Source of the DNA: Planctomycetota bacterium
GTDB lineage: Bacteria; Planctomycetota; E44-bin39
Assembly: GCA_004376375.1 (NCBI GenBank)
Contig: SOJX01000076.1
Location: 1-64,000 of the forward strand
DNA length: 64,000 nt
Reading direction: 5' to 3'
A model generated the notes under the pieces. That model ran no database searches. It was not told the origin of the DNA and saw only the letters and a program-made list of their open reading frames with translations. This document shows, piece by piece, positions 1,372 to 41,031 of this stretch (position 1 is its first letter; each line of letters opens with the position of its first letter). The translations under genes and the position numbers were made by a program.

Positions 1372-2223
1372 TTATTGCCTGCTTTTTCCGTCGAAAAACT
1401 TAAGTGCCTCCAGATACATCGTCATACTGCCGTGCGTCTCGGCACCGGGACCGCTGTAGGGCGCGTCATCCGGAAGCCTGTAGCCGGCGTCCCTCATGCC
1501 GTCCACAATCTGCTGCGCGGCGGCAAAAGCCCCTCCCGGTCCAACATTGCCCCACGGGGCAAATCCAAGCTCGGAAGCAGTCTTTGTCGGGGTGCCGCCG
1601 TGCGTAATGCTGTCCGCCCAGTAGGCTGCGAAATATTCCGGCCTCAGGTCGAAACCCAACGACAGGCCCGCGCCGGTTCCTGCCGATTCGCTGAGCAGGT
1701 AGGTCTTGTCGTTATCAATATTGTAGTTTTCTCTTACGTAATCCAGAACGTTAGCGGCGTCCTGGGCCGAGCTGGATCTGCCGTCAAGCGTTGCAAAAAT
1801 GAAGCGTTCGATACCTGCCATCCCACGCATGTTCCGAAGGTTCTGCGTCTGCTGAACGACGCCTTCGACTCCACTGATAGCAATCATGAGCTCGTTCGGA
1901 ACCGCATCGTTATATGTGGTGGGCACAAGCATATGACATGGAGAACCGTTTGCGCTAATTGGGTCAAACCCTTCATCCGGTGATTTTCCGCCCGAGCCTT
2001 CTGAAGAACCGCCAAGCGGGATGTGAGACAGGCCGACATTACCGCCACCGCCGGTCCCAGTACCACCGGTTCCGCCGCCGCCTGTGCCAGTGCCCCCGCC
2101 ACCGCCAGAACCTCCTGAACTAGAACTGCTGCTACCAGATTTTTTACCACTACTGCAACCTGGGATGGCGAAAATCAGGCTGAACGTGATTGCTATAGTG
2201 GCAAGGAGGAGGAATCGTTTCAT
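1372..2223 (-). CDS. Lipoprotein alpha/beta-hydrolase (esterase-like)
   Basis: 283 residues. Signal segment, lipobox IPGC, polar KKSG stretch and Ser/Gly/Thr linker to about residue 65. The C-terminal domain matches the feruloyl esterase/PHB depolymerase (LpqC-like) fold: a nucleophile elbow LSESAGTG around residue 180 (Ser in the SxSxG variant of GxSxG), an acidic residue after the following strands, and a late His in ETHGSM. First gene after the sigma54-like promoter at 2290-2307, followed closely by STAS, CAP-like and a further lipoprotein gene. The substrate is unknown; a surface-anchored esterase for plant or microbial polyesters is an inference from the family. Confidence 0.75.
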   Translation of the reverse strand: MKRFLLLATIAITFSLIFAIPGCSSGKKSGSSSSSSGGSGGGGGTGTGGGGTGGTGTGGGGNVGLSHIPLGGSSEGSGGKSPDEGFDPISANGSPCHMLVPTTYNDAVPNELMIAISGVEGVVQQTQNLRNMRGMAGIERFIFATLDGRSSSAQDAANVLDYVRENYNIDNDKTYLLSESAGTGAGLSLGFDLRPEYFAAYWADSITHGGTPTKTASELGFAPWGNVGPGGAFAAAQQIVDGMRDAGYRLPDDAPYSGPGAETHGSMTMYLEALKFFDGKSRQ

Positions 2224-2289
2224 GTCGTCTCCTTTTTCTATAACTGCTGGCGGTTGGATGGATTGTGCTGATTCATATGTATTTAACTA

Positions 2290-2307
2290 ATACAATATAT
2301 GTGCCTA
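2290..2307 (-). promoter_or_regulatory. Sigma54-type -24/-12 promoter, module 1 copy 1
   Basis: Read on the minus strand the site is TTAGGCACATATATTGTATT: GG at -24 (2305-2304), ten bases, then GT at -12 instead of the usual GC, with AGGCAC and TTG matching the consensus TGGCAC-N5-TTGC. It is about 70 bp upstream of the esterase gene and about 100-140 bp downstream of the paired dyads at 2407-2447. An identical element is at 6592-6607. Confidence 0.6.
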
Positions 2308-2406
2308 AATTCTTGCCCATGTTTGTTATTTGAGTAACCTCTTGTGTTTGCAGGGATTATGCGGAAGAGAAATTCTGACACCAGCGGTTATTAGGGAGTT
2401 ATGAGG

Positions 2407-2447
2407 TGTGCTGATAGCACAAAAGGCAAGATTGTGCTCACAGCACA
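2407..2447. promoter_or_regulatory. Paired dyad enhancer sites (UAS), module 1 copy 1
   Basis: Two perfect 6-3-6 inverted repeats: TGTGCT-GAT-AGCACA at 2407-2421 and TGTGCT-CAC-AGCACA at 2433-2447, centres 26 bp apart. This is the expected form of activator binding sites upstream of a sigma54 promoter. The same pair with the same spacing stands at 6709-6749, just past the stop codon of the activator gene. Confidence 0.75.
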
Positions 2448-2452
2448 CTATT

Positions 2453-2476
2453 TTATGTTCTGGGGATATTCCACTT
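2453..2476 (-). pseudogene. Remnant of activator gene 3' end (KWNIPRT stop)
   Basis: On the minus strand 2476-2453 reads AAG TGG AAT ATC CCC AGA ACA TAA, that is KWNIPRT and stop. This is exactly the C-terminus of the activator at 6755-12091. The match breaks off just upstream, so a copy of the end of that gene was carried along with the duplicated enhancer-promoter block. Confidence 0.7.
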
Positions 2477-2536
2477 TACAGAAGGCTAGAGCTAAGTGCA
2501 TAACCAGATACCCGGAATTTCAAATGTTATGGTGTG

Positions 2537-4858: not shown

Positions 4859-5590
4859 TTATTGGATTGTCACGTTGCATGCAGGTACCGTACCGCCGGG
4901 GCCGGGGTGCGTCCACCCCGCATGCGATGACAGTATACGGGTCCAGCACTGCTGGGATGCGACGCAGTTTTCAGGGTCGCACCACTTGGATAAACCTTCT
5001 TCTCCGCCTGCTCCACTACGCCCCATAATACAGATGCCTGCAGCCCCGTTTACACAATTGTATTCTTCGCCGTGAAAAGGCCCGACCCAGGCGTGTCCGA
5101 GCTCGTGCAGGAAGCCGTGCATTATGAGTTTACCCGATGACAGGGTTATTTGCCAGCCGCCGGCCCCGGACGAGCAGGATGCGAGTGGGCTACCCAGAGG
5201 GCCTTTAATACTCTTTACTATTACATCGCCGCTTAAACTGTTGTTTACGAGGGTCTGGTTGCGAAGGTATCCCTGGCCCTCGGTTCCATTCCAGAAGCCG
5301 CCGGCAAAAGTTTTTATCCTGTTGGCCATAAATTCCATATCAGCCTGAGACGCATTTTCTCTCACACCCCAGGTCAAATCAAGCGCATCGGCATCCCCCG
5401 GATTGCCGCCGCCACCCCCGCCACCCCCGCCACCGGTTCCGCCACCACCTGGAGTGCCGGTTGGTGCAGCAACGCCGCGAGAGGGTTTATCTTTCTTGGA
5501 ACAACCTGTAAGCGGCAGTGTCATCGCCACGGCAAGAAAAAGAATCAGAAGTCCGGATTTCACGAGAATAACTGGAAATTTATGTTTCAT
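4859..5590 (-). CDS. Lipoprotein zinc metalloprotease, HExxH...EEY family (paralogue 1)
   Basis: 243 residues. Starts MKHKFPVILVKSGLLILFLAVAM, lipobox LTGC, then KKDKPSR and a Gly/Pro linker, then a domain beginning GNPGDADALDLTWG. The active site is HELGHAWVGPF followed by GEEYNC; an HExxH with a downstream acid-Tyr resembles the HExxH...DEY layout of M64-type peptidases, so the Glu of EEY may be the third zinc ligand (inference). It then has CIMG, KWCDPENC and a final QQCW, with several conserved cysteines suggesting disulfides. Four close paralogues lie in the window (5670, 31006, 32723, 33515) and one distant one (34296). Confidence 0.75.
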   Translation of the reverse strand: MKHKFPVILVKSGLLILFLAVAMTLPLTGCSKKDKPSRGVAAPTGTPGGGGTGGGGGGGGGGNPGDADALDLTWGVRENASQADMEFMANRIKTFAGGFWNGTEGQGYLRNQTLVNNSLSGDVIVKSIKGPLGSPLASCSSGAGGWQITLSSGKLIMHGFLHELGHAWVGPFHGEEYNCVNGAAGICIMGRSGAGGEEGLSKWCDPENCVASQQCWTRILSSHAGWTHPGPGGTVPACNVTIQ

Positions 5591-5669: not shown

Positions 5670-6419
5670 TTATTCGATTGTCACGTTGCATGCAGGTTGC
5701 GAGCCGCCGGGGCCGGGGTGCGCCCAGTTATGCGAAGCCTGCATCTTGTTCCAGCACTGCTGGGATGCGACGCAGTTTTCAGGGTCGCACCACTTGGATA
5801 AACCTTCTGCTCCTCCTCTCCCCATGGCTGCTCCCTGGATACAGACGCCTGAAGCTGCGTCCTGGCAATTGTATTCTTCGCTTGAGAAAGGTCCGACCCA
5901 GGCGTGTCCGAACTCGTGCAGCCAGACTTGCGATTCGAAAGTGCCTGTGGCCAGGGTTATCGTCCAGCCGCCGCCCCCGAAGGAGCACATTCCAGCCGGA
6001 TTACTTTGTGGCCCTTTAATCCCCCCCTGTATTATAGTCTTGGCGTCTGAGCTGTTATTTTTCAGCGTCTGATTGCGCAAATACCCCTGACCCTCTGTAC
6101 CGGTCCATAAGCCGTTGGCATAGGTTTTTATCCTGTCAGCCATATATTCCAAGTCAGCCTGAGATTCATCGATTGGGCTCGCCCAGGTCAGGTCATGCGC
6201 AGTGGCGTCACCCGGGTTTCCGCCGCTGCCGGTTCCAGTGCCGGTTCCAGTGCCGGTGCCGGTACCACCATTACCGCCACCACCGCCGCCGCCACCGCCA
6301 TCGCTGCGAGAGGATTTATGTTTTTTAGAGCAACCTGTAAGCGGCAGCATCATCGCCACGGCAAGAAAAAGAATCAGAAGTCCGGATTTCACGAGAATAA
6401 CTGGAAATTTATGTTTCAT
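5670..6419 (-). CDS. Lipoprotein zinc metalloprotease (paralogue 2)
   Basis: 249 residues. Signal segment nearly identical to paralogue 1, lipobox LTGC, SKKHKSSRS, then a Gly and (GT)n linker. Domain landmarks: GNPGDATAHDLTW, WLHEFGHAWVGPF, SEEYNC, CIQGAAMG, EGLSKWCDPENC and QQCW. In place of the tight CIMG turn this copy has a slightly longer CIQGAAMGRGG. It is the first full gene after the promoter at 6592-6607 and its ATG overlaps the TGA of a short leader gene (6416-6535), so it is probably translated by coupling. Predicted surface peptidase; substrate unknown. Confidence 0.75.
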   Translation of the reverse strand: MKHKFPVILVKSGLLILFLAVAMMLPLTGCSKKHKSSRSDGGGGGGGGGNGGTGTGTGTGTGTGSGGNPGDATAHDLTWASPIDESQADLEYMADRIKTYANGLWTGTEGQGYLRNQTLKNNSSDAKTIIQGGIKGPQSNPAGMCSFGGGGWTITLATGTFESQVWLHEFGHAWVGPFSSEEYNCQDAASGVCIQGAAMGRGGAEGLSKWCDPENCVASQQCWNKMQASHNWAHPGPGGSQPACNVTIE

Positions 6420-6535
6420 AACTCTCTCCCTTCCAGGCCGGATTTGTGACGATCACTGCAACTTGGAATAGCGAAGATCAGGCTGAACGTGATTGGGATT
6501 GGGATGGTGACAAAAAGGTTAATATGTCTCTTCAT
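6416..6535 (-). pseudogene. Truncated lipoprotein leader coupled to metalloprotease gene
   Basis: A 39-codon frame: MKRHINLFVTIPIPITFSLI, lipobox IPSC, a short polar stretch, then TGA (6418-6416) that overlaps the ATG of 5670-6419 as ATGA. Its signal segment (TFSLIFAIP) matches that of the esterase at 1372-2223, which stands after the other copy of the same promoter block. It is therefore the 5' end of a duplicated lipoprotein gene whose body was replaced by the metalloprotease. It may still serve as a translated leader. Confidence 0.65.
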
Positions 6536-6591
6536 TTTCACTAACTGCTTTTGATTGAAGAGATTATACTGATTCATATATATTTAACTAA

Positions 6592-6607
6592 TACAATATA
6601 TGTGCCT
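6592..6607 (-). promoter_or_regulatory. Sigma54-type -24/-12 promoter, module 1 copy 2
   Basis: Minus-strand element identical to that at 2290-2307: GG at 6606-6605, ten bases, GT at 6594-6593. It lies about 58 bp upstream of the leader ATG at 6535 and about 103-143 bp downstream of the paired dyads. Confidence 0.6.
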
Positions 6608-6708
6608 AAATTCCTGCCCGGGTTTGTTATTTAAGTAACTTCTTGTGTCTGCAGGGATTATGCGGAAGAAAAATTCTGATACTGGTGGTTATTAGGGAAT
6701 TATGAGGG

Positions 6709-6749
6709 TGTGCTGACAGCGCAAAGAGCAGGATTGTGCTCACGGCACA
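6709..6749. promoter_or_regulatory. Paired dyad enhancer sites (UAS), module 1 copy 2
   Basis: TGTGCT-GAC-AGCGCA at 6709-6723 and TGTGCT-CAC-GGCACA at 6735-6749, each with one mismatch to the 6-3-6 dyad. Centres are 26 bp apart as in copy 1. The pair begins six bases after the stop codon of the activator gene. Confidence 0.7.
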
Positions 6750-6754
6750 CTGAT

Positions 6755-9700
6755 TTACGTTCTTGGAATATTCCACTTTTTTCGTTTCAACCAGATGTAT
6801 TTTCGGCTCACACCCAGTTTGTCGGCGAGCTGGGATTCACTGTATCGATCCTGGTTTGCCAGGATGAATTCTTTCATGTATTGGTCAAGTGAAAGCTCGC
6901 GTGAAAGGCCTGTATCCGGTTCCGGTTTGTGTTCCTGGTCGCTCATTATTTCCTGTATATCGCTGACGGTAATGGCGTCACCTGCTCTCACGAGCGCCTG
7001 TTGAATTATATTGCGCAATTGTCTTATGTTGCCGGGATAATTGTAATCGTGCAATCTTGCAAGGGCTTCGGATTCGAGTGATTTCACCGGCACTTTCAGC
7101 TCTTCTGCAAACTCCTTGAGAAAGTGTTCGGCAAGAAGTGCAATATCTTCCAGCCTTTCACGGAGCGGAGGCAGGTCGATGCGGACCACGTTCAGCCTGT
7201 AAAAAAGGTCTTCGCGGAAAAGGCCCTGTTCAACGAGCTGTTCCAGCGGTGTATTGGCCGAACAGACCAGGCGAATGTCAACGGGAACAGGCATTGCGGC
7301 GCCGATCTGCCGTACTTCACGTTCCTCAATAACACGCAGGAGCCTTACCTGCATCTCGAGCGGCGTCGAGCCTATTTCATCCAGAAAGAGCGTACCGCTG
7401 TCCGCCGATTCAATAAGTCCTATCTTGTCAGAGTCGGCACCGGTAAACGAGCCTTTAATATGGCCGAAGAGTTCACTTTCAAGCAATGACTCCGTCATCG
7501 CGCCGCAATTGATTGATACAAAAGGTCCGGCGTTTCGACTGCCGTTGTAATGAAGCGCTTTGGCGACCAGCTCTTTTCCCGTTCCGGTTTCGCCGTATAT
7601 ATATACCGTCAGGTCGGTATCGGTAACGGAGTCCAGAATGCGGAACAGATCGCGCATGGGTTTTGAGCGCCCGACAATATTCATGTAACCGTACCGCGTG
7701 CGTATCTCTTCCTCCAGAGAGCGCATTTTTATATCACGCTTTTCCTGCTCAACTGCGCGAGTGATGATGGGTGCGACGCGCCCGGCAAACGCCTCGACGA
7801 AAATAAGGTCGGACCTGGTAAATGCAAATTCGAGCGAGGTGGAGTCGAGGTAGACCACACCGATTGTGCGATTTTCCATAACAATCGGCACGCAAAGCAC
7901 GGAATGCAGGCGGAGGTCCATTACGCTTCTGGCATTGCGCAGGGACTCATCCAGTGAAATATCTTTTACGAATCGCGACTTGCCGGTACGAATTACCTCC
8001 TTTACCATTGTGTGGCTTGCTTCGTATTCCGGCGACATGATTTCTTCGTCAAGGATGTTTCGCGCCGCCAGGTGTCTGAAATTATTATTCGCATCGACAA
8101 GAATAATAAAACCGCGCTCGGCGCTGGTGAAATCGAGGACCATCGCCAGGGCAAGGTTCAGGAGGCTCTTCACGTCGAGGTCGGTCGTTGCCAGGCGGGT
8201 AATCATGCCGAGAAGTGCAAGTCCCTGCCGGGGGACGAGGCTTTCATCAACGCCTGCGACTTTGAGTATCTCTTTTTTCAATGCAAGGTCTTCTTCGGAA
8301 GAGCCGGCCATCATCCCTATCGGGCGCTGCTCTTTCAGCCACTTGTCGACATCATCCAGAGGGCTGAAGAAAGGAGACTGTCGGAGGCTTTGCCTGTCGT
8401 ATCCTTCCGGCAGCGTGGAGGCAATATCTTCAAAAGCTTTTTCAGCTTCAGCGAAGTGCCTGGCGGTAAGTTCGACGTCATTTTTCGCAAGGCCGTGGAG
8501 CGCCAGGGTCAACGCAGCTTCAAAGATGCGGGCTGTATTTTCCGCCTGGCGGGCGGTTTTTAAAGCCTTGTTTGCATACTGTAGAGTTTTATCCGTATTT
8601 CCGGTCTTCGTTCCCCAACGCGCCCACAGGATATCAGCCTCAATCCTATTTGGAACGTTGAGCGGTATGCTTTCCAGTTCAGCAAGGGTTTTTTCAGCAG
8701 CCTCGACCTTCCCTGTTTCGATAAGCACTTCGGCCTTTGCCAGTCCAATGTATCCTTCGGTCCGCCCGCGGACCTTCAGTTTTTCAGCCTTCTGTATCAG
8801 CCCTCTGGCGCGTTTAATTTCCCCCATGAATGTAGCTAGCCGTACCCGGTCCGTAAGCGCAGTGACAAACCTGGTCGGGTTGTCGGATTCAACGAGTGCG
8901 CATGCTTCGTCCAAATCTTTTACGGCAGCATCAATATCGCCGCATAGAGTTGAGAAAACTTCGGCACGAGCTATAAGAACAAAAGCTTCCATGTCTCTGG
9001 CTTTTGAATTTCTTGCAGTTTCCAGCGCTCTATTCAGGTTATCAAGCGCGAGGCCGGCGTTTCCCAAGACTTTATACGCACCCCCGCGGGACAACAGCGC
9101 GTTCTGTCGGAGAAGAGGGCTGTCCATGCTTTCAGCAAGCTCAGCCACCTCTTCGTAGAAAGAGAGCGCTTCCCTTGTCCGGCCGCAGTCAAAGTGAACA
9201 CTGCCAATGGAAATGAGGGCAATTCCGTAGCTGATTCGGTCCCCCAGGATCTGAAACAGTTGTTTTGCGGAAGTATATGCATCAAGCGCCTTATCATTTT
9301 CGTTGAGATCCAGAAAGACGTTGGCGGCATTTGACCTGACATAAGCAACGCTGCGCAATCTCCCTATCTCTTCGTTTCTTTTCAGGGCGATTTGATAGTG
9401 GTGCAGCGCTTTTTCATGTTTTCCCTTGTACCAGTAAGAAATGCCCAAAATGTTGTGGAGTTCGGCGAAGTAGATTTTTGTGGTTTTTCGCTTCAGCATA
9501 CGACGCGCGTGCCTGGCAGCGTCGCTGAACTTTCCGCGGCGATAATGGAGGCCTGTAATATAGTAGTCAAGCAGATTAATCTCGTCTATTCTGGAACGTT
9601 GGGACGCGAATATCCGGCGGGCTTCCGTCCAGCAGTCGCCGGCTTTTTGCAGATCGCCCATGTGCTCGGCAATCCGCCCCTTTTGAGTAAGAATTTCGGC

Positions 9701-12091
9701 ATGAAGCCGGTTCCTGCCTTTTGCGCCAATCTGCTTTTCAATCGTTTCAAGGAATCGCTGGGCCTCTTCTAATGCACCGGGGCTTATGGAAATGCTGATT
9801 TTCGCGGCCAGGACCTTAATCGCCAGTTCGGGAAACTGCCACAATGAATCATGGTCGGCTACGCGCAGGCACTCCTGTATCTTTTCCACATTCGCACCCG
9901 TACGGTGGTAAATCCTCATCAACCTGTGGAGGGATCTGTACCATTCTTCAGTATGGGAAGGCAGATTTCTACGCAACGCCTCATAGAGACGAACGGCACT
10001 CGACTGTGCCATTACCTGTTCGGCATGCTCCGCCGCTTCCCAGAGAAGCGGTATGAGAGTATCAGCCTCGATACCGGCCTTTTCAGCCTGAAGAGCGCGC
10101 TCAATGACGTCTGCGCCTGTTTTTACATAGTATTCATATATATTCGCATACAAGCTGCGTCGGCGGTCTTCCGGAATCGAATTCAGCGCCAGCTCGGCCA
10201 TTTTAGCGCTTCTGAAAAAGTACCTGCTTTTTTCATCCAAAACCAGGATCGTACTGGCCGTAAGATGCTCAATCGAAGCGGCACACGCCTCGGCCGGGAT
10301 CCCAGCCGCAACCAGCACAAGCTCGAAGTTTCCCGGCCGCGCTATGCAGGCAATCGCCTCGACAACCGCGCGCTCATCTTCTGACAGCTTTTCCAATCGA
10401 TGCCTGAGGACTTCCTCGCCGGCCCCCGGCAGCTCTGTCGTGGGCAATATCACGCTTGTTCGCCATTCCCCGGTCTCGTAAAAGAGAGCGCCGGAATCGA
10501 AAAGCTGCTGGATTGTCTGCATAAGGATAAGGGGATTACCGCCGGATGCGCTGATAACTCTGGCGGCAACCTGATCCGGCAGTCCGGTGCCGCCCAGCAT
10601 TGATGAAATCAGTTTTCTGAATGCGTCATCGGAAAACGGAGCGAGCGGCATGCGCGCTGCAATCTCGAGGTTAATCATACGGTCAATAAGCTCAATTGTT
10701 CTGTGAGTCTCTTCTATTTCCGTGTTGCAGCAGCAAAGCACAAGCAAAGGCACCCGTTTTTCATCTTCATTCTTAAGTCTCGTAAGACGGGCAAGATGCT
10801 CGAGGAGGGCCAGAGTATCGTCGTCGGCTTCTTCCATGTCGTCGATCACCAGAAGCAAAGGCTGTTGCTTTGCGGCCTCAAGAAAGAGGAGCGCGGACTC
10901 ATGCATGATCCTGCCGGGCTCGTCGAAATCAGCAGACTCTGTTTTTCCTGTCAGGATTTCAACGACAGAGGAGAACCGTTTAATGATTTTCCTGGGTATA
11001 ACCGTGGTAATTTTTCGCACAGCGTCGGCGAAAGGACCGAAGGGCCGGCTTTTTGATATTGTGCTCCTTGTATGAAGGAGCATAATGCCGCCCAACTGCG
11101 CATAATGGCCGACCTCCCGCATGAGGCGGCTTTTGCCTATGCCTGTTTCTCCGGTAATGAACCAGACCGCAGGGTCCCTGACGTCAGTCTCGGGTGAGTC
11201 GATCAGCGATTGAAGTTTATTCAGCTCTTCATCCCGGCCGACGAACCCGCCGCTCAGCAGATAGGCCCTGGCAGTTTCAATCGTTTCTTCTTCAAGCGAA
11301 ATATTCATCGCCTGGGAAAGCGCGCGATTGACTTCGTTGGCCGTGTAATAACGCGATGCGGGGTCACGCTCGAGAAGGCGGAGAACAATCTGCTCCAGTT
11401 CGACCGGGACGTTCTCGTCAAACTTCCGCGGCGGCTCGGGTTCGGCTGATGCCTGCAACCGCAAAGCTTCAATGGCAGAATCGCGTTCAAACGGTCTCTT
11501 GCCTGTAAGGGCTTCGTAGAGAACGACGCCCAGCGAGTAAAGGTCAGAGCGCGGGTCGCCGAGCTCGCCGCGAACAACCTCGGGCGCAGCATAACCGATC
11601 GTGCCACGCATGGCGCCAGAAACCGGCGTCTCAGTCGTCGCCAGGCCAAAATCTATCAGTCTGGCGATGCCTTCCCTATTAATAATGACATTACCCGGTT
11701 TCACATCGTAGTGGATTACGCCGCGTGAATGGATGTGCTGAAGCGCGCGAAGAACCTGTGCGAAAAGACGAGACTTGTCCGCGTAGTCCAGCTTCCTGCA
11801 GGACTCGACTATGTTCCTGCCTTCAATATATTCTGAGGTGTAAAACCAGAAGCCGGACTCCTCATCGAAGCCAAAGTCATAAACTTGCGCGATGTTGGGA
11901 TGTTTGAGCTTGGTAAGTATGGTGAACTCATGCCGCATCAGCTCGAGATGCCGCGTGCCCGGTGCCTCAAGCAACTTAAGCGCAAGTATCTCACCATGTT
12001 CAAGCTCGTCCTTTACAAGATAAACCTTCCCCGCTGCTCCCTCGCCGAGAAGCTTCTCAACTTCATAACGATTTGCGATGACTTTGGACAA
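6755..12091 (-). CDS. Ser/Thr kinase-ATPase-TPR-GAF-sigma54 activator (module 1)
   Basis: About 1778 residues. The frame opens at 12127, but the TTG at 12091-12089 follows GAGG and aligns with the start of the paralogue at 40986. Domains: protein kinase 1-280 (GEGAAGKVYLV, ALK lysine, HYDVKPGN, DFG), so catalytically intact; AAA ATPase about 300-650 (GETGIGKS Walker A); TPR-like helices about 700-1270; GAF about 1320-1470; sigma54 AAA+ about 1490-1730 (GETGTGKE, GSFTGA); Fis-type HTH at the end (LGVSRKYIWLKRKKW). The loop that contacts sigma54 reads GSFTGA, not GAFTGA. It most likely senses a signal by kinase and GAF domains, binds TGTGCT-N3-AGCACA and drives the adjacent lipoprotein operons. 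Confidence 0.9.
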   Translation of the reverse strand: MSKVIANRYEVEKLLGEGAAGKVYLVKDELEHGEILALKLLEAPGTRHLELMRHEFTILTKLKHPNIAQVYDFGFDEESGFWFYTSEYIEGRNIVESCRKLDYADKSRLFAQVLRALQHIHSRGVIHYDVKPGNVIINREGIARLIDFGLATTETPVSGAMRGTIGYAAPEVVRGELGDPRSDLYSLGVVLYEALTGKRPFERDSAIEALRLQASAEPEPPRKFDENVPVELEQIVLRLLERDPASRYYTANEVNRALSQAMNISLEEETIETARAYLLSGGFVGRDEELNKLQSLIDSPETDVRDPAVWFITGETGIGKSRLMREVGHYAQLGGIMLLHTRSTISKSRPFGPFADAVRKITTVIPRKIIKRFSSVVEILTGKTESADFDEPGRIMHESALLFLEAAKQQPLLLVIDDMEEADDDTLALLEHLARLTRLKNEDEKRVPLLVLCCCNTEIEETHRTIELIDRMINLEIAARMPLAPFSDDAFRKLISSMLGGTGLPDQVAARVISASGGNPLILMQTIQQLFDSGALFYETGEWRTSVILPTTELPGAGEEVLRHRLEKLSEDERAVVEAIACIARPGNFELVLVAAGIPAEACAASIEHLTASTILVLDEKSRYFFRSAKMAELALNSIPEDRRRSLYANIYEYYVKTGADVIERALQAEKAGIEADTLIPLLWEAAEHAEQVMAQSSAVRLYEALRRNLPSHTEEWYRSLHRLMRIYHRTGANVEKIQECLRVADHDSLWQFPELAIKVLAAKISISISPGALEEAQRFLETIEKQIGAKGRNRLHAEILTQKGRIAEHMGDLQKAGDCWTEARRIFASQRSRIDEINLLDYYITGLHYRRGKFSDAARHARRMLKRKTTKIYFAELHNILGISYWYKGKHEKALHHYQIALKRNEEIGRLRSVAYVRSNAANVFLDLNENDKALDAYTSAKQLFQILGDRISYGIALISIGSVHFDCGRTREALSFYEEVAELAESMDSPLLRQNALLSRGGAYKVLGNAGLALDNLNRALETARNSKARDMEAFVLIARAEVFSTLCGDIDAAVKDLDEACALVESDNPTRFVTALTDRVRLATFMGEIKRARGLIQKAEKLKVRGRTEGYIGLAKAEVLIETGKVEAAEKTLAELESIPLNVPNRIEADILWARWGTKTGNTDKTLQYANKALKTARQAENTARIFEAALTLALHGLAKNDVELTARHFAEAEKAFEDIASTLPEGYDRQSLRQSPFFSPLDDVDKWLKEQRPIGMMAGSSEEDLALKKEILKVAGVDESLVPRQGLALLGMITRLATTDLDVKSLLNLALAMVLDFTSAERGFIILVDANNNFRHLAARNILDEEIMSPEYEASHTMVKEVIRTGKSRFVKDISLDESLRNARSVMDLRLHSVLCVPIVMENRTIGVVYLDSTSLEFAFTRSDLIFVEAFAGRVAPIITRAVEQEKRDIKMRSLEEEIRTRYGYMNIVGRSKPMRDLFRILDSVTDTDLTVYIYGETGTGKELVAKALHYNGSRNAGPFVSINCGAMTESLLESELFGHIKGSFTGADSDKIGLIESADSGTLFLDEIGSTPLEMQVRLLRVIEEREVRQIGAAMPVPVDIRLVCSANTPLEQLVEQGLFREDLFYRLNVVRIDLPPLRERLEDIALLAEHFLKEFAEELKVPVKSLESEALARLHDYNYPGNIRQLRNIIQQALVRAGDAITVSDIQEIMSDQEHKPEPDTGLSRELSLDQYMKEFILANQDRYSESQLADKLGVSRKYIWLKRKKWNIPRT

Positions 12092-12126
12092 AGTTACCTC
12101 GCAGGTTCCACGGCAAAGTACTACCA

Positions 12127-12214
12127 ATCATAACCGGATTCAAGCTAAAAAGTTCCAAGCCATTGGTGATATATCGTTTCCGCGCAGATGTGTTTCCGTA
12201 AGCAGTTGATTCTC
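12127..12214. repeat. Conserved upstream block shared by two activator genes, copy 1
   Basis: About 80 bp differ at very few positions from 41032-41109. The identity stops sharply at TTGATTCTC, where an integrase fragment begins in this copy. Confidence 0.8.
12128..12156 (-). promoter_or_regulatory. Candidate ECF-type promoter of the module 1 activator
   Basis: Minus strand: GGAACTT (12156-12150), 15 bases, GTTATGA (12134-12128), close to the ECF-type consensus GGAACTT-N15/16-GTC. The same sequence stands before the module 4 activator. A start site here would lie upstream of the TTG start chosen at 12091. Inferred from sequence only. Confidence 0.35.
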
Positions 12215-21950: not shown

Positions 21951-24900
21951 ATGAAACCTGAGCTTATCCAGAAAAGATACCGGGTGCTGAGGACTCTGGG
22001 TAAGGGCGGGATGGGCGAAGTGTTCCTTGTCGAGGACAAGCTGAAGAAAGACAGAAGAGTCGCCCTTAAAACAATAAAGCCGGACGCTCCTGACATTGAT
22101 GAATTTGTAGACCACTTCAAAGCGGAGTTCGACTCCCTGCGAAAACTCTCACATCCCAATCTCGCAAAGGTATACGATTTCGGATACGACTCGGAAAAAG
22201 GGCAATACTTCTTTTCATCCGAATACCTTGAAGGAACCGATCTGCTGAACGCTTCGAAAACACTGTCGCCTGACCAGCTGTACGAGATACTCGTCCAGGT
22301 ATGCAGAGCCCTCGAGTATATCCATTCGCATGGAATTATCCACTATGACATCAAGCCGCAACACATCCTGGTGGAGACCAGGGCGAATAAACTGGTCTCA
22401 AGAATAGTCGATTTCGGCCTTGCAGCGGAGGTGCAGACAAAATCAGGCCTTCCCATTCGCGGGACCATTGCCTATCTTGCCCCCGAAGTGGCGAAGCGTG
22501 ACCTGGTCGACGGTCGTGCGGATTTATACTCATTGGGGGCTACCCTTTATCACGTCCTTTCCGGAAAGACGCCTTTCGGGGGAAAGAGCCCGATTTCGAC
22601 ACTCCGGCATCATATAGAGAAGCTACCGGAATTCCCCTCGAACATGAATAAAAGTATACCCTCGCCGCTGAGGCAGATTACTCTGAAGCTGCTTGCCAAG
22701 GAACCGTCTGAGCGCTACCAGAATGCCAATGAAGTTATTGCGGCAATCAACAAGCTCGCAAACAAGAATTTCGAATTGGAGACGACCGACACCAGGAAGA
22801 GTTACATTCTGTCGCCGAAGTTCGTAGGCAGGGAACGGGAACTGAAAAAACTTGTTGAAAGATTTGCAGAACTGAAAGCCGGAAACCTCGAAAAGTTCTT
22901 TATTGTGATTGCGGGAGAAGAAGGAACCGGTAAAAGCCGGTTGCTGAGAGAGTTCAAATACCATGTTCAATTATCCGGTACGCCATGCTTTACGGGAGAA
23001 ACGGCGACTGGCCTTAACTTTCTCAGGGATATCCTGCGCCAGACAGTTTCCTATTTCGGGGCGGAGAATCCTGTTGTAAGCAAGTACGCGCCGTATCTTT
23101 CAAGATTTGTGCCGGAAGTAGCCAGGGGCCGAAAAGCCAAGGCACTGGCCGCATTAGATGCTCGGGAAGACAAGATTCGCGTCTTTGACAACCTGGCCCG
23201 ATTTATTCTGGCCGTTTCAGAGGTCGAGAAGTTCACTCTCCTGATTGAAGACATTGACTCCATCGACAGTTTTTTCCGCGAGTTTCTCGAGTATCTGCTG
23301 CGCACTGCCGCCTTGTCCAGCGAGTCCAGGAAAGCTATCGGCATGCTCCTTTGCGCTACCTGCGTCGACTTAAAGGAACCGTTCCCGCGTGAGTTGACGA
23401 AGAAGCATTCAGAGCAAATCGCAATAAGAGATTTTTCAATAGATGAAACCGAAGCGTTGATAGATTCGATGCTCCGGCTTGGAGAACAGAAAGCTCCGTT
23501 TGCCCAGAAAGTTTTTTCAGTGACCGGCGGCAACCCTCTTTTCGTCGAAGAGGTTATGAAAAACCTTATGGAAGAAGGCCTGGTCGTCAAACAGGAGGGG
23601 ATATGGCTGGTCGAAACAGAAAAAGCCGTTTTCCCAAATACTCTCTCTTCTACGCTTTCAAGACGGCTTTCCCGCCATTCGCGCCAGGCGCTCAATGTTT
23701 TACATGCATTGGCTGCGCTCAACCGCACGGTCCCAATACGCATTTTATCCCAGGTCGTGGAAGCAAAGGACATATCCACCGACATTGCCGGGTTGCGTAA
23801 AAGCCAGATGATTATACGGCGGCGAAATGGATACGAGTTGAGCCAGCCGTACCTTGGCCAGATGCTTCTTTCAAAGATGAGTCGAAAAACACTGAAACTC
23901 CTGCATAACAGGATTGGCAATTCAATTGAGAAAGCCCATGCCTCCGGTATTGATGAACACATTGAGGAGATTGCCTACCATTACCTTCGCGGTTCCGAGA
24001 AGAAGAAGGCCATTGAGTTTGGAGCGCTGGCTGCAGAAGAGCTTAGAAAATCGTATGCAAACGAAGCTGTAATAGACTGTTACAGGCGGATGCTGTTATT
24101 CCTCGATAAAGATGAAAGCAAAAAGAAGTTTGAAATCTCAATGAAGCTTGGAGAGATGTTTGAACTAATCGGCCAATATGAAAAAGCAAGAAGCACCTAC
24201 ATGCCGCTGCTCAGGCTGAAAAGCCCGGGCAAACTTCAACAGGCGGAAACTTATAAGAAGATCGCGGATATCCTGTTTCTAACCGGGCAATACGACAAAG
24301 CGCTTCAAACCTGCAATAAAGCCCTGACTAACCTGGAAAAACTGAAAAAATCCACCCGCGTTCTCGCTGATATATACAACCTGATTGGTAATATTGATGA
24401 AAGAAAAAAAAACATGGTGGATGCGGAGGTGAATCTTCGCAAAGGCTTGAAGATAAGAGAAAAAATCGGTGACAGCGTCGCCATTGCTGATTCGCTGAAC
24501 AACCTGGGGCTACTTTACACCCGCATAGGCGACCAAACCAAAGCAACGCGGTGTTACCAGGAATCCTTGGACCTGTACAAAAGAATCGGCGATGAAGGAA
24601 GGATTGGTACTTCGCTTTTGAACCTGGGGATTCTATTTGAGCGCGAAGGGCGATACGCCAAGGCGGCAAAACACTTTGCGAGAAGCCTGGCCATCCAGAA
24701 AAAAGTGGGAGACAAATGGCGGGTAATGATCTCAATGATCAACCTGGGGTGCGTTTACATCCCAATGGGAGATTATATACTCGCTTTGGATTGCCTTGAA
24801 GAAGGCTTGAAGGAATCAAGAGAAATAGACAGCTCGTTTGGCGTTGTACACTGTCTGGCCAACATTGGCCGGGCATACCTGGAGATCGGGGATCTTGACA

Positions 24901-27116
24901 AGGCAATCGAATGCATCAATAATGTTGTGGAGTATTCAAAAGAAGGATTGCCGGTTCCCGTTGAGGGCCAGGCCAGCCTTGACCTTGGGACCACCTGTCT
25001 GCGGCGCGGTCGATTGGAAGAGGCGGAAAATCATTTGCTTGCCGCTCTTGAAAAATCAGACGAAGCTGAGGACCGGCGACTCAATGTGGAAACTTTACTT
25101 AAACTTGCAGACATGCACCATGTAAAAAATTCCCCCGATAAATGTCGGGAAGTGTGTGAAAAAGCGCTTGGCAAAGCCACGAAAATTGGCGCGTTGGATC
25201 TCCAGGCATGGGCGAATCTGGCCCTGGGAAAATGTTATGAGGTGGAAACGAAGCTGCAACAAGCCAAAACTCTTTTGGAAAATTCCCTGAAGACAGGTCG
25301 AAAACTGAGGCTGCCGGACCTCATCCAGAACGCATCATATGAACTCGCCGGGGTATATCGCCAATTGGGCAAGGCAAAGAAATCCCGTGAACTAAATGAA
25401 ATGGCAATAAATAGCGTGCAAAAAGTTGCCGGGAAACTGGATGGGCAGCTCAAGGCTGCATACTTGTCCGCCCCGATCCGTAACGCTATAATAGAGGGGA
25501 CCATACAAGGCAAGTTGCCTTCGAAGATTGAGACGGCTTTACCCTCGGTCAGCAAAGAGAAAAAAAAGGAAAGTTTCGTGACGAAAAAAAAGCGGCCGAA
25601 AGAAGCGGGAATTGAAGCCGATGCCCTGACACGCGACGGCATAATGCTTTTAGGCATGGTAAACCGCATAATAAATGCCGGTTTAGATCCCGACAAGATG
25701 CTCAATATTGCACTTGGAACGCTGATAGATATAACTCAGGCTGAACGCGGCTTCATAATTCTGATTGACGAGCAGGGCCGTTTCAGCCACCGGGTCGCAC
25801 GCAATATCCAGGACGAAGAAATTATTTCGGCTGATTTCAGCCGCAATATTGTTGAGCGGGTTATCAAGACCGGACGCTCGCAACTCATTGACGACGCATC
25901 AGGGAAAAAACAGTTCCAACAGTTCCAGAGCGTAATAAAGTTGAATCTGCGCTCCGTCATGTGCGTTCCTGTAAAAAAGGATTCCAGCGTTATCGGTGTT
26001 ATATACCTTGATAACACGTCACTGACGAAACAGTTCGGCGAGAATGACAGGACACTGGTTGAAGCTTTTGCACAAAAGATCGCTGCCCCTCTCCGGATAT
26101 CGCTGGAACATGAAAAACAAGCGCGAATAATCGAGCAGCTACAGGGCCAGTTGCAGACAAAATATCAGTACGAGAACATAGTGGGCAAAAGTAAGCCGAT
26201 GCAGGATGTCTTCGAAGTACTGGACCGGGTCACTCCAACCGACCTTAACATTTATATATATGGCGACACCGGTACGGGCAAGGAGCTTGTCGCCAAGGCT
26301 ATTCATTATAACGGCCCAAGGAAAGAGAAACCGTTCATATCCGTAAACTGCGGCGCAATACCCGAACCGCTGCTGGAAAGCGAACTCTTCGGTTACGTCA
26401 AAGGCGCATTCACGGGTGCGGACAAAGACAAGAAAGGCCTGTTTGAGGTTGCCAACGGGGGGACTCTCTTTCTGGACGAAATCGGCAATATGTCCGAGGC
26501 AATGCAGCAGAAAATGCTCCGCGTTCTGCAGGAAAAAGAACTAAGACCAATCGGCAGCGATGAGCTGATCAAGCTCGATGTCCGTATTATTTCGGCAACC
26601 AATCGCGACCTCATGGAGCTTGTAGAAAGTAAAGAATTTCGTGAAGACCTCTACTATCGCCTGAGAGTCGCCGAAATTTACCTGCCACCCCTGCGTGAGC
26701 GCCGGGAAGACATATCATTGCTGATTGATTATTTCCTCGAAAAGTACAAGAAGGAAAAAGAAATAAAGAAAGAACTCGAGCCTGCGGCAATTGATTTGCT
26801 GTTGAATTACGACTGGCCCGGAAATGTTCGTGAACTTGAAAACATGATGCAAACGCTCAATCTGGTTGAAGGGTCAAAAATAACTCATGAATCGGTACTG
26901 GCAAATCTTCCGGTTCAGGCCGAAACAGTATTTTCCCCGGACAGGCTCAAGCGGGATAACCTAATGCCTCTTGAAGAGCTGGAGCGGGATTACATAATAA
27001 AGGTTCTCCAAATTGTTGATGGTAATAAAAGCGAGGCAGCCAGAATTCTGGGTATTGACAGAGACACACTTAGAAGGAAATTAAAGAAGTATACCGCCTC
27101 TGAGCCACTGCCGTAA
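21951..27116 (+). CDS. Ser/Thr kinase-ATPase-TPR-GAF-sigma54 activator (module 3)
   Basis: 1721 residues. Kinase 1-275 (GKGGMGEVFLV, ALK lysine, HYDIKPQH with the catalytic Asp, DFG), AAA ATPase about 290-600 (GEEGTGKS), long TPR region about 680-1190 with clear units such as LNNLGLLYTRIGDQTKA and LLNLGILFEREGRYAKA, GAF about 1240-1390 (ERGFIILIDEQG), sigma54 AAA+ about 1405-1640 (GDTGTGKE, GAFTGA, DEIGNM), Fis-type HTH (AARILGIDRDTLRRKLKKY). All core motifs are intact. Its TAA lies inside the first of two TGCCGTA dyads that precede the lipoprotein operon it presumably controls. Same architecture as 6755 and 35644 but clearly more distant from them than they are from each other. Confidence 0.92.
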   Translation: MKPELIQKRYRVLRTLGKGGMGEVFLVEDKLKKDRRVALKTIKPDAPDIDEFVDHFKAEFDSLRKLSHPNLAKVYDFGYDSEKGQYFFSSEYLEGTDLLNASKTLSPDQLYEILVQVCRALEYIHSHGIIHYDIKPQHILVETRANKLVSRIVDFGLAAEVQTKSGLPIRGTIAYLAPEVAKRDLVDGRADLYSLGATLYHVLSGKTPFGGKSPISTLRHHIEKLPEFPSNMNKSIPSPLRQITLKLLAKEPSERYQNANEVIAAINKLANKNFELETTDTRKSYILSPKFVGRERELKKLVERFAELKAGNLEKFFIVIAGEEGTGKSRLLREFKYHVQLSGTPCFTGETATGLNFLRDILRQTVSYFGAENPVVSKYAPYLSRFVPEVARGRKAKALAALDAREDKIRVFDNLARFILAVSEVEKFTLLIEDIDSIDSFFREFLEYLLRTAALSSESRKAIGMLLCATCVDLKEPFPRELTKKHSEQIAIRDFSIDETEALIDSMLRLGEQKAPFAQKVFSVTGGNPLFVEEVMKNLMEEGLVVKQEGIWLVETEKAVFPNTLSSTLSRRLSRHSRQALNVLHALAALNRTVPIRILSQVVEAKDISTDIAGLRKSQMIIRRRNGYELSQPYLGQMLLSKMSRKTLKLLHNRIGNSIEKAHASGIDEHIEEIAYHYLRGSEKKKAIEFGALAAEELRKSYANEAVIDCYRRMLLFLDKDESKKKFEISMKLGEMFELIGQYEKARSTYMPLLRLKSPGKLQQAETYKKIADILFLTGQYDKALQTCNKALTNLEKLKKSTRVLADIYNLIGNIDERKKNMVDAEVNLRKGLKIREKIGDSVAIADSLNNLGLLYTRIGDQTKATRCYQESLDLYKRIGDEGRIGTSLLNLGILFEREGRYAKAAKHFARSLAIQKKVGDKWRVMISMINLGCVYIPMGDYILALDCLEEGLKESREIDSSFGVVHCLANIGRAYLEIGDLDKAIECINNVVEYSKEGLPVPVEGQASLDLGTTCLRRGRLEEAENHLLAALEKSDEAEDRRLNVETLLKLADMHHVKNSPDKCREVCEKALGKATKIGALDLQAWANLALGKCYEVETKLQQAKTLLENSLKTGRKLRLPDLIQNASYELAGVYRQLGKAKKSRELNEMAINSVQKVAGKLDGQLKAAYLSAPIRNAIIEGTIQGKLPSKIETALPSVSKEKKKESFVTKKKRPKEAGIEADALTRDGIMLLGMVNRIINAGLDPDKMLNIALGTLIDITQAERGFIILIDEQGRFSHRVARNIQDEEIISADFSRNIVERVIKTGRSQLIDDASGKKQFQQFQSVIKLNLRSVMCVPVKKDSSVIGVIYLDNTSLTKQFGENDRTLVEAFAQKIAAPLRISLEHEKQARIIEQLQGQLQTKYQYENIVGKSKPMQDVFEVLDRVTPTDLNIYIYGDTGTGKELVAKAIHYNGPRKEKPFISVNCGAIPEPLLESELFGYVKGAFTGADKDKKGLFEVANGGTLFLDEIGNMSEAMQQKMLRVLQEKELRPIGSDELIKLDVRIISATNRDLMELVESKEFREDLYYRLRVAEIYLPPLRERREDISLLIDYFLEKYKKEKEIKKELEPAAIDLLLNYDWPGNVRELENMMQTLNLVEGSKITHESVLANLPVQAETVFSPDRLKRDNLMPLEELERDYIIKVLQIVDGNKSEAARILGIDRDTLRRKLKKYTASEPLP

Positions 27117-27144: not shown

Positions 27145-27240
27145 CTCTTATGTGTTTCCTCAAAGGAGCCGCTCCGGGCTTCTCTTTCATAACTCCATCA
27201 AGAACAATAGGTTACACCTGCACGTCAAATATCCTTTCCT

Positions 27241-27257
27241 TAGGTATAACACTTGCT
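27241..27257 (+). promoter_or_regulatory. Sigma54-type promoter, module 3 operon
   Basis: AGGTATAACACTTGCT: GG (27243-27244), ten bases, GC (27255-27256), with the full TTGCT -12 element. It is about 100 bp downstream of the nearer dyad and about 45 bp upstream of the first ATG. Confidence 0.65.
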
Positions 27258-27301
27258 TTATGTAATGCCAGTTGAAATGAACGGTGAAAGGAGAATAAGC
27301 A

Positions 27302-31005: not shown

Positions 31006-31743
31006 TTATTGAATCGTCACGTTGCACGCGGGCGTTGCGCCGCCCGGGCCGGGGTGGGCCCATCCATGCGTCTCCTGTATTTTGTTCCAGCACTTCTGGC
31101 TCGCGACGCAGTTTGAGGGGTCGCACCACTTAAGGAGACCTTCGCTGCCGATTGCTGCCGTCGACTGGCAGCAGACGCCTGCACTCGTGTTCCTGCAACT
31201 GTATTCCTCGCTGTGAAAAGGCCCGACCCAGCCGTGTCCGAGTTCATGCATGAAGAGCTGTGCGGGAAGCTTGCCGCTTGACAGGTATATCTGCCAGCCT
31301 GTACTCAAGATGTCGCAGTATGCTGGCGGGTTGCCGAAGGGGCCGTCAACCGCCCTTATTATAATCTTGCCCTCTGAGCCGCCGTTTACCAGCGTCTGAT
31401 TGCGAAGATACCCCTGGCCCTCCGTCCCCTGCCAGAGGAAGCTGTTGAACTCTTTTATCCTTTCCGCCATCCATTCTATGTCAGCTTGCGACGCCTTTTG
31501 TTTAACAGCCCAGGTCAGGTCAAGCGCTTCAGCATCTCCGGGATTGCCGCCGGTTCCGGTTCCGGTCCCGGTCCCGGTGCCGGTCCCGGTTCCATTTCCG
31601 GTTCCGGTTCCGGTTGACGGAACAGAATTGCGGGAGGACTTATGATCCTTGGAGCAACCGGCAAGCGGCAGTATCATCGTCACGGCAAGAAAGAGAATAA
31701 GAAGTCCGAATTTCGCAGGTATAAACGGTAATTTGTGTTTCAT
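31006..31743 (-). CDS. Lipoprotein zinc metalloprotease (paralogue 3)
   Basis: 245 residues from the ATG at 31743-31741 (MKHKLPF), which matches the starts of its paralogues; the frame is open to 31842. Lipobox LAGC, SKDHKSSRNS, (GT)n linker, GNPGDAEALDLTW. Active site MHELGHGWVGPF with SEEYSC, then CCQ in place of the C-x-M-G turn of paralogues 1 and 2, then GLLKWCDPSNC and QKCW. The change at the presumed Met-turn may alter the zinc site (inference). Last gene of the module 4 operon. Confidence 0.75.
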   Translation of the reverse strand: MKHKLPFIPAKFGLLILFLAVTMILPLAGCSKDHKSSRNSVPSTGTGTGNGTGTGTGTGTGTGTGGNPGDAEALDLTWAVKQKASQADIEWMAERIKEFNSFLWQGTEGQGYLRNQTLVNGGSEGKIIIRAVDGPFGNPPAYCDILSTGWQIYLSSGKLPAQLFMHELGHGWVGPFHSEEYSCRNTSAGVCCQSTAAIGSEGLLKWCDPSNCVASQKCWNKIQETHGWAHPGPGGATPACNVTIQ

Positions 31744-31853
31744 AATCCTCTCTCCCTTTGTGTCTCGACTGGAGCAGGGCATGAACGCATCCGTCGGCAA
31801 AATCCCGTTCTTCGCCGGGTTTTTCTTTCGGTTGTGCAACAACGCTTATATGG

Positions 31854-32722: not shown

Positions 32723-33469
32723 TTATTGAATCGTCACGTTGCACGTAGGCGTTGTGCCGCCCGGGCCTGGGTGCACCCATCCGTGCGTCTGCTGCATTTT
32801 ATTCCAGCACCGCTGGCTCGCGACGCAGTTTTCAGGGTCGCACCACTTAAGGAGACCTTCACTTTCTTCTCTATCCAGCGCTCCCTGGCAGCAGATGCCT
32901 GCGCTCTTGTTCCTGCAGCTGTATTCCTCGACGAGAAAAGGTCCGACCCAGGCATGTCCGAACTCGTGCATGAAGACTTGTGCGGGAACTTTGCCGCTTG
33001 ATAACTGTATCTCCCAATCGTCCCCGGGCCAGGTCAACCCCGGCTTGCTGCCTACGGGACCGTCCGCAGTGCCCACTATAATCTGGCCGTCTGAACTGCC
33101 GTTTTTAAGCGTCTGATCGCGAAGATACGCCTGGCCCTCCGTCCCCTGCCAGAGGAAGTTGTTGAACTCTTTTATCCTTCCAGCCATCCATTCTATGCTG
33201 GCCTGCGACGCCTCCTGTTTAACAGCCCAGACTATGTCAATCGCATCGGCTTCTCCGGGGTTTCCACCGCCGCCGGTTCCGGTTCCACTACCGGTTCCGG
33301 TTCCGCTGCCGGTTCCGGTTCCGTTTCCGGTTCCGCCAGGTGGTGGAGCAGCGGCGCGAGATGACTTATGGTTTTTGGAGCAACCGGTAAGTGGCAGTGT
33401 CATTGCCACGGCAAGAAAAAGAACCAGAAGTCCGAATTCCGCGAGCATAAACGGAAATTTGTGCTTCAT
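32723..33469 (-). CDS. Lipoprotein zinc metalloprotease (paralogue 4)
   Basis: 248 residues. MKHKFPFMLAEFGLLVLFLA, lipobox LTGC, SKNHKSSRA, (GT)n linker, GNPGEADAIDIVW. Active site MHEFGHAWVGPF then VEEYSC, CCQGAL, GLLKWCDPENC and QRCW. Closest to paralogue 3, sharing the CCQ variant and the WQGTEGQ phrase in the middle. Near-identical ends (CNVTIQ) in all close copies indicate recent duplication or gene conversion. Confidence 0.75.
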   Translation of the reverse strand: MKHKFPFMLAEFGLLVLFLAVAMTLPLTGCSKNHKSSRAAAPPPGGTGNGTGTGSGTGTGSGTGTGGGGNPGEADAIDIVWAVKQEASQASIEWMAGRIKEFNNFLWQGTEGQAYLRDQTLKNGSSDGQIIVGTADGPVGSKPGLTWPGDDWEIQLSSGKVPAQVFMHEFGHAWVGPFLVEEYSCRNKSAGICCQGALDREESEGLLKWCDPENCVASQRCWNKMQQTHGWVHPGPGGTTPTCNVTIQ

Positions 33470-33514: not shown

Positions 33515-34255
33515 TTATTGAATCGTCACGTTGCATGAAGGCGCTGTGCCGCCGGGGCCGGGATGCGCCCAACCGTGAGTCTCCTGTATTTTGTTCCAGC
33601 ACTGCTGGCTTGCGACGCAGTTTTCAGGGTCGCACCATTTGCATAAACCTTCTTCGCCGCCTGTTCCGGCGGCTCCCATGACACAGACGCCTGAACCCGG
33701 GTCCATGCAGTTGTATTCTTCGCTGCGGAAAGGCCCAACCCAGGCGTGGCCGAACTCGTGCAGGAAGACCTGCGAAGGGAGCGTGCCTGTGGTCAGGGTT
33801 ATCTGCCAGCCGCCGCTCCCACCGGTCATCCATCCAACCGGGTTGCTCTTGGGGCCTTTAATCGACTTTATTATTACCTGGGCGTCTGAAGTGTTATTTT
33901 TCAGCGTCTGCTCGCGAAGATACGCCTGACCCTCTGTTCCGGTCCACAAGCCGTTGGCATAGGCTTTTATCCTGTCAGCCATATACTCCAGGTCAGCCTG
34001 TGACTCATCCCTTGCCGCAGCCCAGGTCAAATCAAGCGCCTCGGCATCTCCGGGGTTTCCGCCGCCGTTTGAGCCTCCGCCGCCGGTTCCGGTGCTGGTT
34101 CCGCCACCGTTGCCTGGAGTGCCGGTGGGTACGACCGCGTTGCGGGAAGACTTGTGTTTCTTGGAGCAGCCGGCAAGCGGCAGCGATATCGCCACGGCAA
34201 GAAGGAGAATCAGAAGTCCGAATTTCGCAGGCAGAATTGGTTTTTTTTGTTTCAT
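33515..34255 (-). CDS. Lipoprotein zinc metalloprotease (paralogue 5)
   Basis: 246 residues. MKQKKPILPAKFGLLILLLA, lipobox LAGC, SKKHKSSRN, Gly/Thr linker, GNPGDAEALDLTW. Active site LHEFGHAWVGPF then SEEYNC, CVMG, GLCKWCDPENC and QQCW. It keeps the C-x-M-G turn and in the middle (DRIKAYANGLWTGTEGQ) is closest to paralogue 2 from module 1, so this family has moved between modules. Confidence 0.75.
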   Translation of the reverse strand: MKQKKPILPAKFGLLILLLAVAISLPLAGCSKKHKSSRNAVVPTGTPGNGGGTSTGTGGGGSNGGGNPGDAEALDLTWAAARDESQADLEYMADRIKAYANGLWTGTEGQAYLREQTLKNNTSDAQVIIKSIKGPKSNPVGWMTGGSGGWQITLTTGTLPSQVFLHEFGHAWVGPFRSEEYNCMDPGSGVCVMGAAGTGGEEGLCKWCDPENCVASQQCWNKIQETHGWAHPGPGGTAPSCNVTIQ

Positions 34256-35453: not shown

Positions 35454-35597
35454 GGTTTTTCAATTTCAACTACATTGATATATATCAAATAGCGTACCCA
35501 TAGACTCGCTCAGGGGAGGGAATGGCACAACTGCTTTACTTGCAATGCGTTATGGTGAGAAAGACATAGCGAGGCCTGGAAATGGCAGGAAGGCTAC

Positions 35598-40986: not shown

Positions 40987-41031
40987 AGTCACCTCGCAGA
41001 CTTTTAAGCAAGTTACTCTCTATCATAACCG

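Follow-up and report, generated by a model that had tools for sequence, protein, structure and literature searches.

The window, the whole 64,000-nt stretch of Planctomycetota DNA analyzed here (positions 1 to 64,000 of contig SOJX01000076.1), carries two similar putative control regions, copy 1 and copy 2, which read on the minus strand and are both located ahead of secreted lipoprotein genes. Copy 2 lies directly 3´ of a gene for a predicted sigma54 activator, while copy 1 has no activator attached. The features are:

1372-2223, minus strand: secreted lipoprotein gene behind copy 1 and its putative promoter (ORF with a lipobox; no Pfam family)
2241-2478, minus strand: copy 1 enhancer-promoter block (2241-2476 in the initial annotation), without attached activator; 85% identity to copy 2
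~2291-2307, minus strand: sigma54-like -24/-12 promoter of copy 1, AGGCACATATATTGTA (2291-2306) and TAGGCACATATATTG (2293-2307)
2334-2362, minus strand: middle element of copy 1 (alignment and model), common to ~20 other promoters genome-wide
2407-2421, minus strand: dyad 2 of copy 1, putative activator site, TGTGCTATCAGCACA; pattern confined to three blocks
2433-2447, minus strand: dyad 1 of copy 1, putative activator site, TGTGCTGTGAGCACA; pattern confined to three blocks
2453-2476, minus strand: scar, the last eight codons (KWNIPRT-stop) of the activator gene, from translation and comparison with 6755-6778
5670-6419, minus strand: secreted lipoprotein with HEFGH motif, the first full gene behind copy 2 (no Pfam family)
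6416-6535, minus strand: truncated lipoprotein leader ORF of 39 aa, a relic of a copy-1-type signal peptide, MKRHINLFVTIPIPITFSLIFAIPSCSDRHKSGLEGREL
6542-6779, minus strand: copy 2 block (6542-6778 in the initial annotation), directly 3´ of the activator gene
~6592-6608, minus strand: sigma54-like promoter of copy 2 (6592-6607), TAGGCACATATATTG at 6594-6608
6635-6663, minus strand: middle element of copy 2 (alignment and model)
6709-6723, minus strand: putative dyad 2 of copy 2, TGCGCTGTCAGCACA (pattern search; dyad pair P = 0.003)
6735-6749, minus strand: putative dyad 1 of copy 2, TGTGCCGTGAGCACA (dyad pair after the stop, P = 0.003)
6755-12127, minus strand: activator, with Ser/Thr kinase, AAA_16 ATPase, TPR, GAF and sigma54-activator AAA+ domains (Pfam) and a C-terminal helix-turn-helix-like tail
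27182-27260, plus strand: corresponding middle element with promoter, following the activator at 21951-27116 (model E 2e-10, training-set member)
35481-35558, minus strand: middle element and promoter behind a second activator, at 35644-40992 (model E 1e-9, training-set member)

Alignment of copies 1 and 2 gave 210 identical positions in 246 columns, and a whole-genome search with copy 1 recovered copy 2 at 85% identity (E 1.5e-75). The identity spans the last activator codons, the dyads, the middle element, the promoter and the 5´ UTR, bearing out the sharing of dyads, promoter and spacing described in the initial annotation: the dyad spacer is 11 bp in both copies and the promoters agree at 16/16 positions. 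Homology continues past position 2241 into the lipoprotein signal peptide, however (2135-2192 versus 6438-6495, 83%), giving a duplicated unit of ~340 bp, such that the block as first drawn was too small. The proposal that the two operons are under identical control also proved too strong, as the dyads are altered at 1 and 2 of their 15 positions, respectively, and the blocks have diverged by 15%. An assembly duplicate was ruled out, since the copies share just 85% identity and occupy different gene contexts on a single contig.

The scar, the spacers and the signal-peptide relic are almost as alike between copies 1 and 2 as the dyads, and homology running through functional and non-functional parts alike is the mark of a segmental duplication. 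Given the signal-peptide homology and the leader relic behind copy 2, the ancestral unit probably comprised the activator end, enhancer, promoter and lipoprotein start, with the lipoprotein probably retained at copy 1 and the activator at copy 2 after the split. The stop codon of the leader ORF overlaps the start codon of the next lipoprotein gene (ATGA), and the two perhaps are translationally coupled.

A whole-genome search for further orphan copies, the check suggested along with the initial proposal, found exactly one additional block matching copy 1 (C137:2317-2560, 70%, E 1.8e-20). This copy 3 also lacks a neighboring activator, is flanked by two similar lipoprotein genes and carries a scar of its own, starting with AATATCCCCAGAGCGTAA (NIPRA-stop) immediately ahead of the dyads. 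It is identical to copy 1 at 168/244 and to copy 2 at 163/245 positions, and no clear signal-peptide homology to the other copies was found. Its dyads have drifted (TGTGCCGAGAGCGCA and TGTGCTATTGGCGCA) and, judging from their sequences, may no longer work. As copy 3 is the most distant of the three, it either arose in an event predating the separation of copies 1 and 2 or has evolved faster. The end of the contig carrying L018 (C16) and the start of that carrying L061 (C137) resemble Illumina adapters, and the neighboring DNA is similar; C137 thus may continue C16, and the first C137 block may belong to activator L018.

The genome encodes sigma54 (RpoN; PF04552, E 1.2e-57, contig C70). The GG at -24 is present in all three copies, while the -12 element, expected to have GC at 10-bp spacing, is TTGT in copies 1 and 2 and TTGC in copy 3; rhizobial nifH is a known case of a base other than C at -12 (PMC3538637). 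A sequence-only model trained on 12 blocks and covering the middle element and the promoter matches 20 places genome-wide at E < 0.001, of which 12 are the training blocks; most of the further matches precede lipoprotein or STAS genes and come with other dyads. The middle element, roughly TAACTCCTT...AAGnAGTTAC and weakly symmetric, is located ~30 bp ahead of many sigma54-like promoters regardless of the dyads they have, and a common second factor may bind it.

The two 15-bp dyads sit 100-140 bp upstream of the -24 element, in agreement with the ~100-150 bp typical of an upstream activating sequence (UAS). The 41-bp dyad pair, searched for as two TGYGC-N5-GCRCA motifs with 6-14 bp between them, has exactly three occurrences in the 5.68 Mb of the genome, each in one of these blocks. 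Pairs of similar palindromes right after the stop stand out against shuffled sequences (P 0.003-0.007) at L009, L012, L017, L020, L022 and L023, a set made up of the resident activator and five paralogs. Two activators in a second genome of the phylum, G038, also have dyad pairs after the stop (P 0.003). No excess over shuffles was detected after the stops of the linked paralogs L011, L014, L021 and L024.

The sigma54-interaction AAA+ domain of the activator is recognizable (PF00158, E 5.7e-67), with GSFTGA replacing the GAFTGA motif. A C-terminal DNA-binding domain is absent among the 25 Pfam families listed for the protein; HTH_8 was matched in the paralog at 21951-27116. Including this activator, the family numbers ~15 in the genome: 13 full-length members and two or three that are partial or more distant. 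At least ten members share one layout, in which the stop codon is followed by usually private dyads, the shared middle element, a sigma54-like promoter and mostly a secreted-lipoprotein gene, while no block was found behind L010, L013, L015 or L019. One paralog, L016 (C137:51701-57028), has one TAA stop counted within the match.

The minus strand of copy 1 reads AAG TGG AAT ATC CCC AGA ACA TAA, and the 3´ end of the activator gene reads AAG TGG AAT ATT CCA AGA ACG TAA, which confirms the KWNIPRT-stop noted initially in the copy without an activator. Identity in this part at chance level had been named as the argument against a common origin; instead, the two ends agree in 21/24 bases (chance 2e-10 to 8e-9), and this objection fails. 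All three differences are synonymous, an outcome that preserves the peptide in 0.5% of random triple changes (1.3% if transitions are favored). The position is also that of an activator end, with the stop 86 bp from the modeled block in both scars (copies 1 and 3) and 78-90 bp away in eight activator-linked blocks, where stops were found with a regular expression for activator-family ends. Using the same expression and the 78-90 bp range, we found no clear scar among the other unlinked blocks tested. One match, ISRANCL-stop at L076, was rejected because it lies 109 bp before the block, the wrong place; one control match arose too.

Together, these observations suggest a model in which each block would be the control region of a sigma54-dependent operon, with two activator-binding dyads forming the enhancer, the middle element and a -24/-12 promoter. 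With the activator gene directly upstream of its own enhancer, the enhancer would start a few bases past the activator stop. A duplication with its breakpoint in the last activator codons would have copied the enhancer, promoter and lipoprotein start to give copy 1, and an older event would have given the third copy on C137. The activator at 6755-12127 would then act in trans on all three copies, so that a signal sensed through its kinase, TPR and GAF parts would turn on three sets of secreted lipoproteins. We consider it likely that duplication of the activator tail spread the control region in this way and that the one activator serves the three copies. Weighing against the model are the TTGT at -12 in copies 1 and 2, the lack of a C-terminal DNA-binding family among the 25 Pfam families listed for the activator, the drifted dyads of copy 3, the four linked paralogs with no significant dyad pair, and the C7 paralog L010, which has no block of its own and may bind the sites as a second activator. 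Comparison of the sequences makes an origin of the copies at the 3´ end of the activator gene, as first proposed, well supported by the scars and the stop distance; a short copying event and duplication of a whole module followed by loss leave the same traces.

The latter route, in which activator, enhancer, promoter and lipoprotein were duplicated together and the second activator was deleted save for its last codons, appears possible, though clearly the less probable course. Whole activators have been duplicated commonly, as the 13 full-length members attest, one of them (L010, on contig C7) 72% identical to the resident activator, and the synonymous differences would fit a period in which both ends were coding. 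However, neither scar is adjoined by any further activator remnant, a different gene, for a lipoprotein, ends ~60 bp upstream at copy 1, and change on the activator side alone fits the synonymous pattern, given that copies 1 and 3 have ATC CCC in common, against ATT CCA in the present activator. Paralogs L010, L011, L016 and L022 likewise use CCC for this proline; with ATC CCC in both scars, the scars seem to hold the older spelling, the activator having changed synonymously after the copying, as far as these very few sites go. Duplication of the whole module would alter the route of copying and leave the present-day function as it is.

The last-codon DNA might instead be a working part of the control region, such as an extra protein site under selection, and no fossil of a coding sequence. 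The scar is kept at least as well as the rest of the block over the three copies (14/18 columns invariant versus 149/244 overall), and TGGAATATTCCA in copy 2 is a perfect palindrome. This palindrome is not retained in copies 1 and 3, however, the excess over 18 columns is slight, and the motif is missing ahead of the dyads in other unlinked blocks, making a selected site improbable. Equally doubtful is control of the operons by different activators, with L010 having taken over the activator-less copies. In favor of this, neither an activator-type dyad pair nor such a promoter follows L010, but the DNA-binding tail of L010 differs from that of the resident activator (26/45 positions identical, versus 168/199 for the AAA+ part) and the copy 1 dyads are nearer to perfect than those beside the resident activator. 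Among the paralogs, the tails diverge more than the AAA+ parts, in line with private dyads. Finally, chance similarity can be dismissed, as the peptide has just 7 residues but the scar extends an 85% identical block without a gap, matches at 21/24 bases and recurs in the third copy.

Rhizobia have duplicated NifA/sigma54 promoters in the nifH and fixA regions, by which one activator drives two operons, and the copied piece there takes in the promoter and the first part of the target gene. The blocks described here resemble these duplications in that a sigma54 promoter was copied with its UAS, but differ in that the copied piece includes the end of the activator gene. The arrangement is also similar to the enhancer-binding protein (EBP) regulons of Desulfovibrio vulgaris, where an inverted-repeat UAS lies upstream of a -24/-12 promoter, as the inverted repeats do here upstream of a -24/-12-like promoter, and where EBP genes often are co-localized with a target operon and several operons per activator are possible (PMC4641369). 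A UAS with a sigma54 promoter, and activators serving several operons, are therefore well known (PMC4641369). In contrast to the D. vulgaris EBPs, the UAS here starts a few bases past the stop of its own activator in many paralogs, and two unlinked copies hold activator codons. In horizontal regulatory transfer, a control region likewise moves between bacterial genomes without its gene, replacing a promoter (PMC5890482); by comparison, the copying here took place within one genome, from a source that adjoins the regulator gene. A small literature search found no precedent for a codon scar at copied enhancer-promoters or for the many-paralog layout, and nothing specific on kinase/TPR/GAF sigma54 activators. 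What is unusual is the codon fossil, together with the many-paralog system.

Regulons are thought to grow through copied control regions, yet the source and direction of the copying are seldom visible; here, leftover regulator codons point to both, and suggest that a single regulator gained several sets of secreted proteins as targets through copies of its own control region. Many of the ~15 activator paralogs have a private dyad pair next to the gene, and the family also offers a natural series on how regulators and sites diverge without cross-talk. A broader and quite tentative extension is that a cassette of activator tail, enhancer and promoter has spread repeatedly in this genome and recruited secreted-protein operons, that the paralogs diverged with private enhancers, and that retained codons would date and orient each copying.

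Two other unlinked blocks, L067 (C82:58210-58367) and L072 (C32:20113-20270), have a GTTGA-N5-TCAAC dyad pair exclusive to them in the genome, and no activator was seen beside either in the stretches of C82 and C32 that were read. A second pair of unlinked blocks with its own shared dyads is in line with action in trans. Within the window, a family of secreted lipoproteins that share an HE(F/L)GH-type motif is encoded at 4859-5590, 5670-6419, 31006-31842, 32723-33469 and 33515-34255. The two HE(F/L)GH lipoproteins tested gave no Pfam match above cut-off; the motif itself is of a type typical of zinc metallopeptidases.
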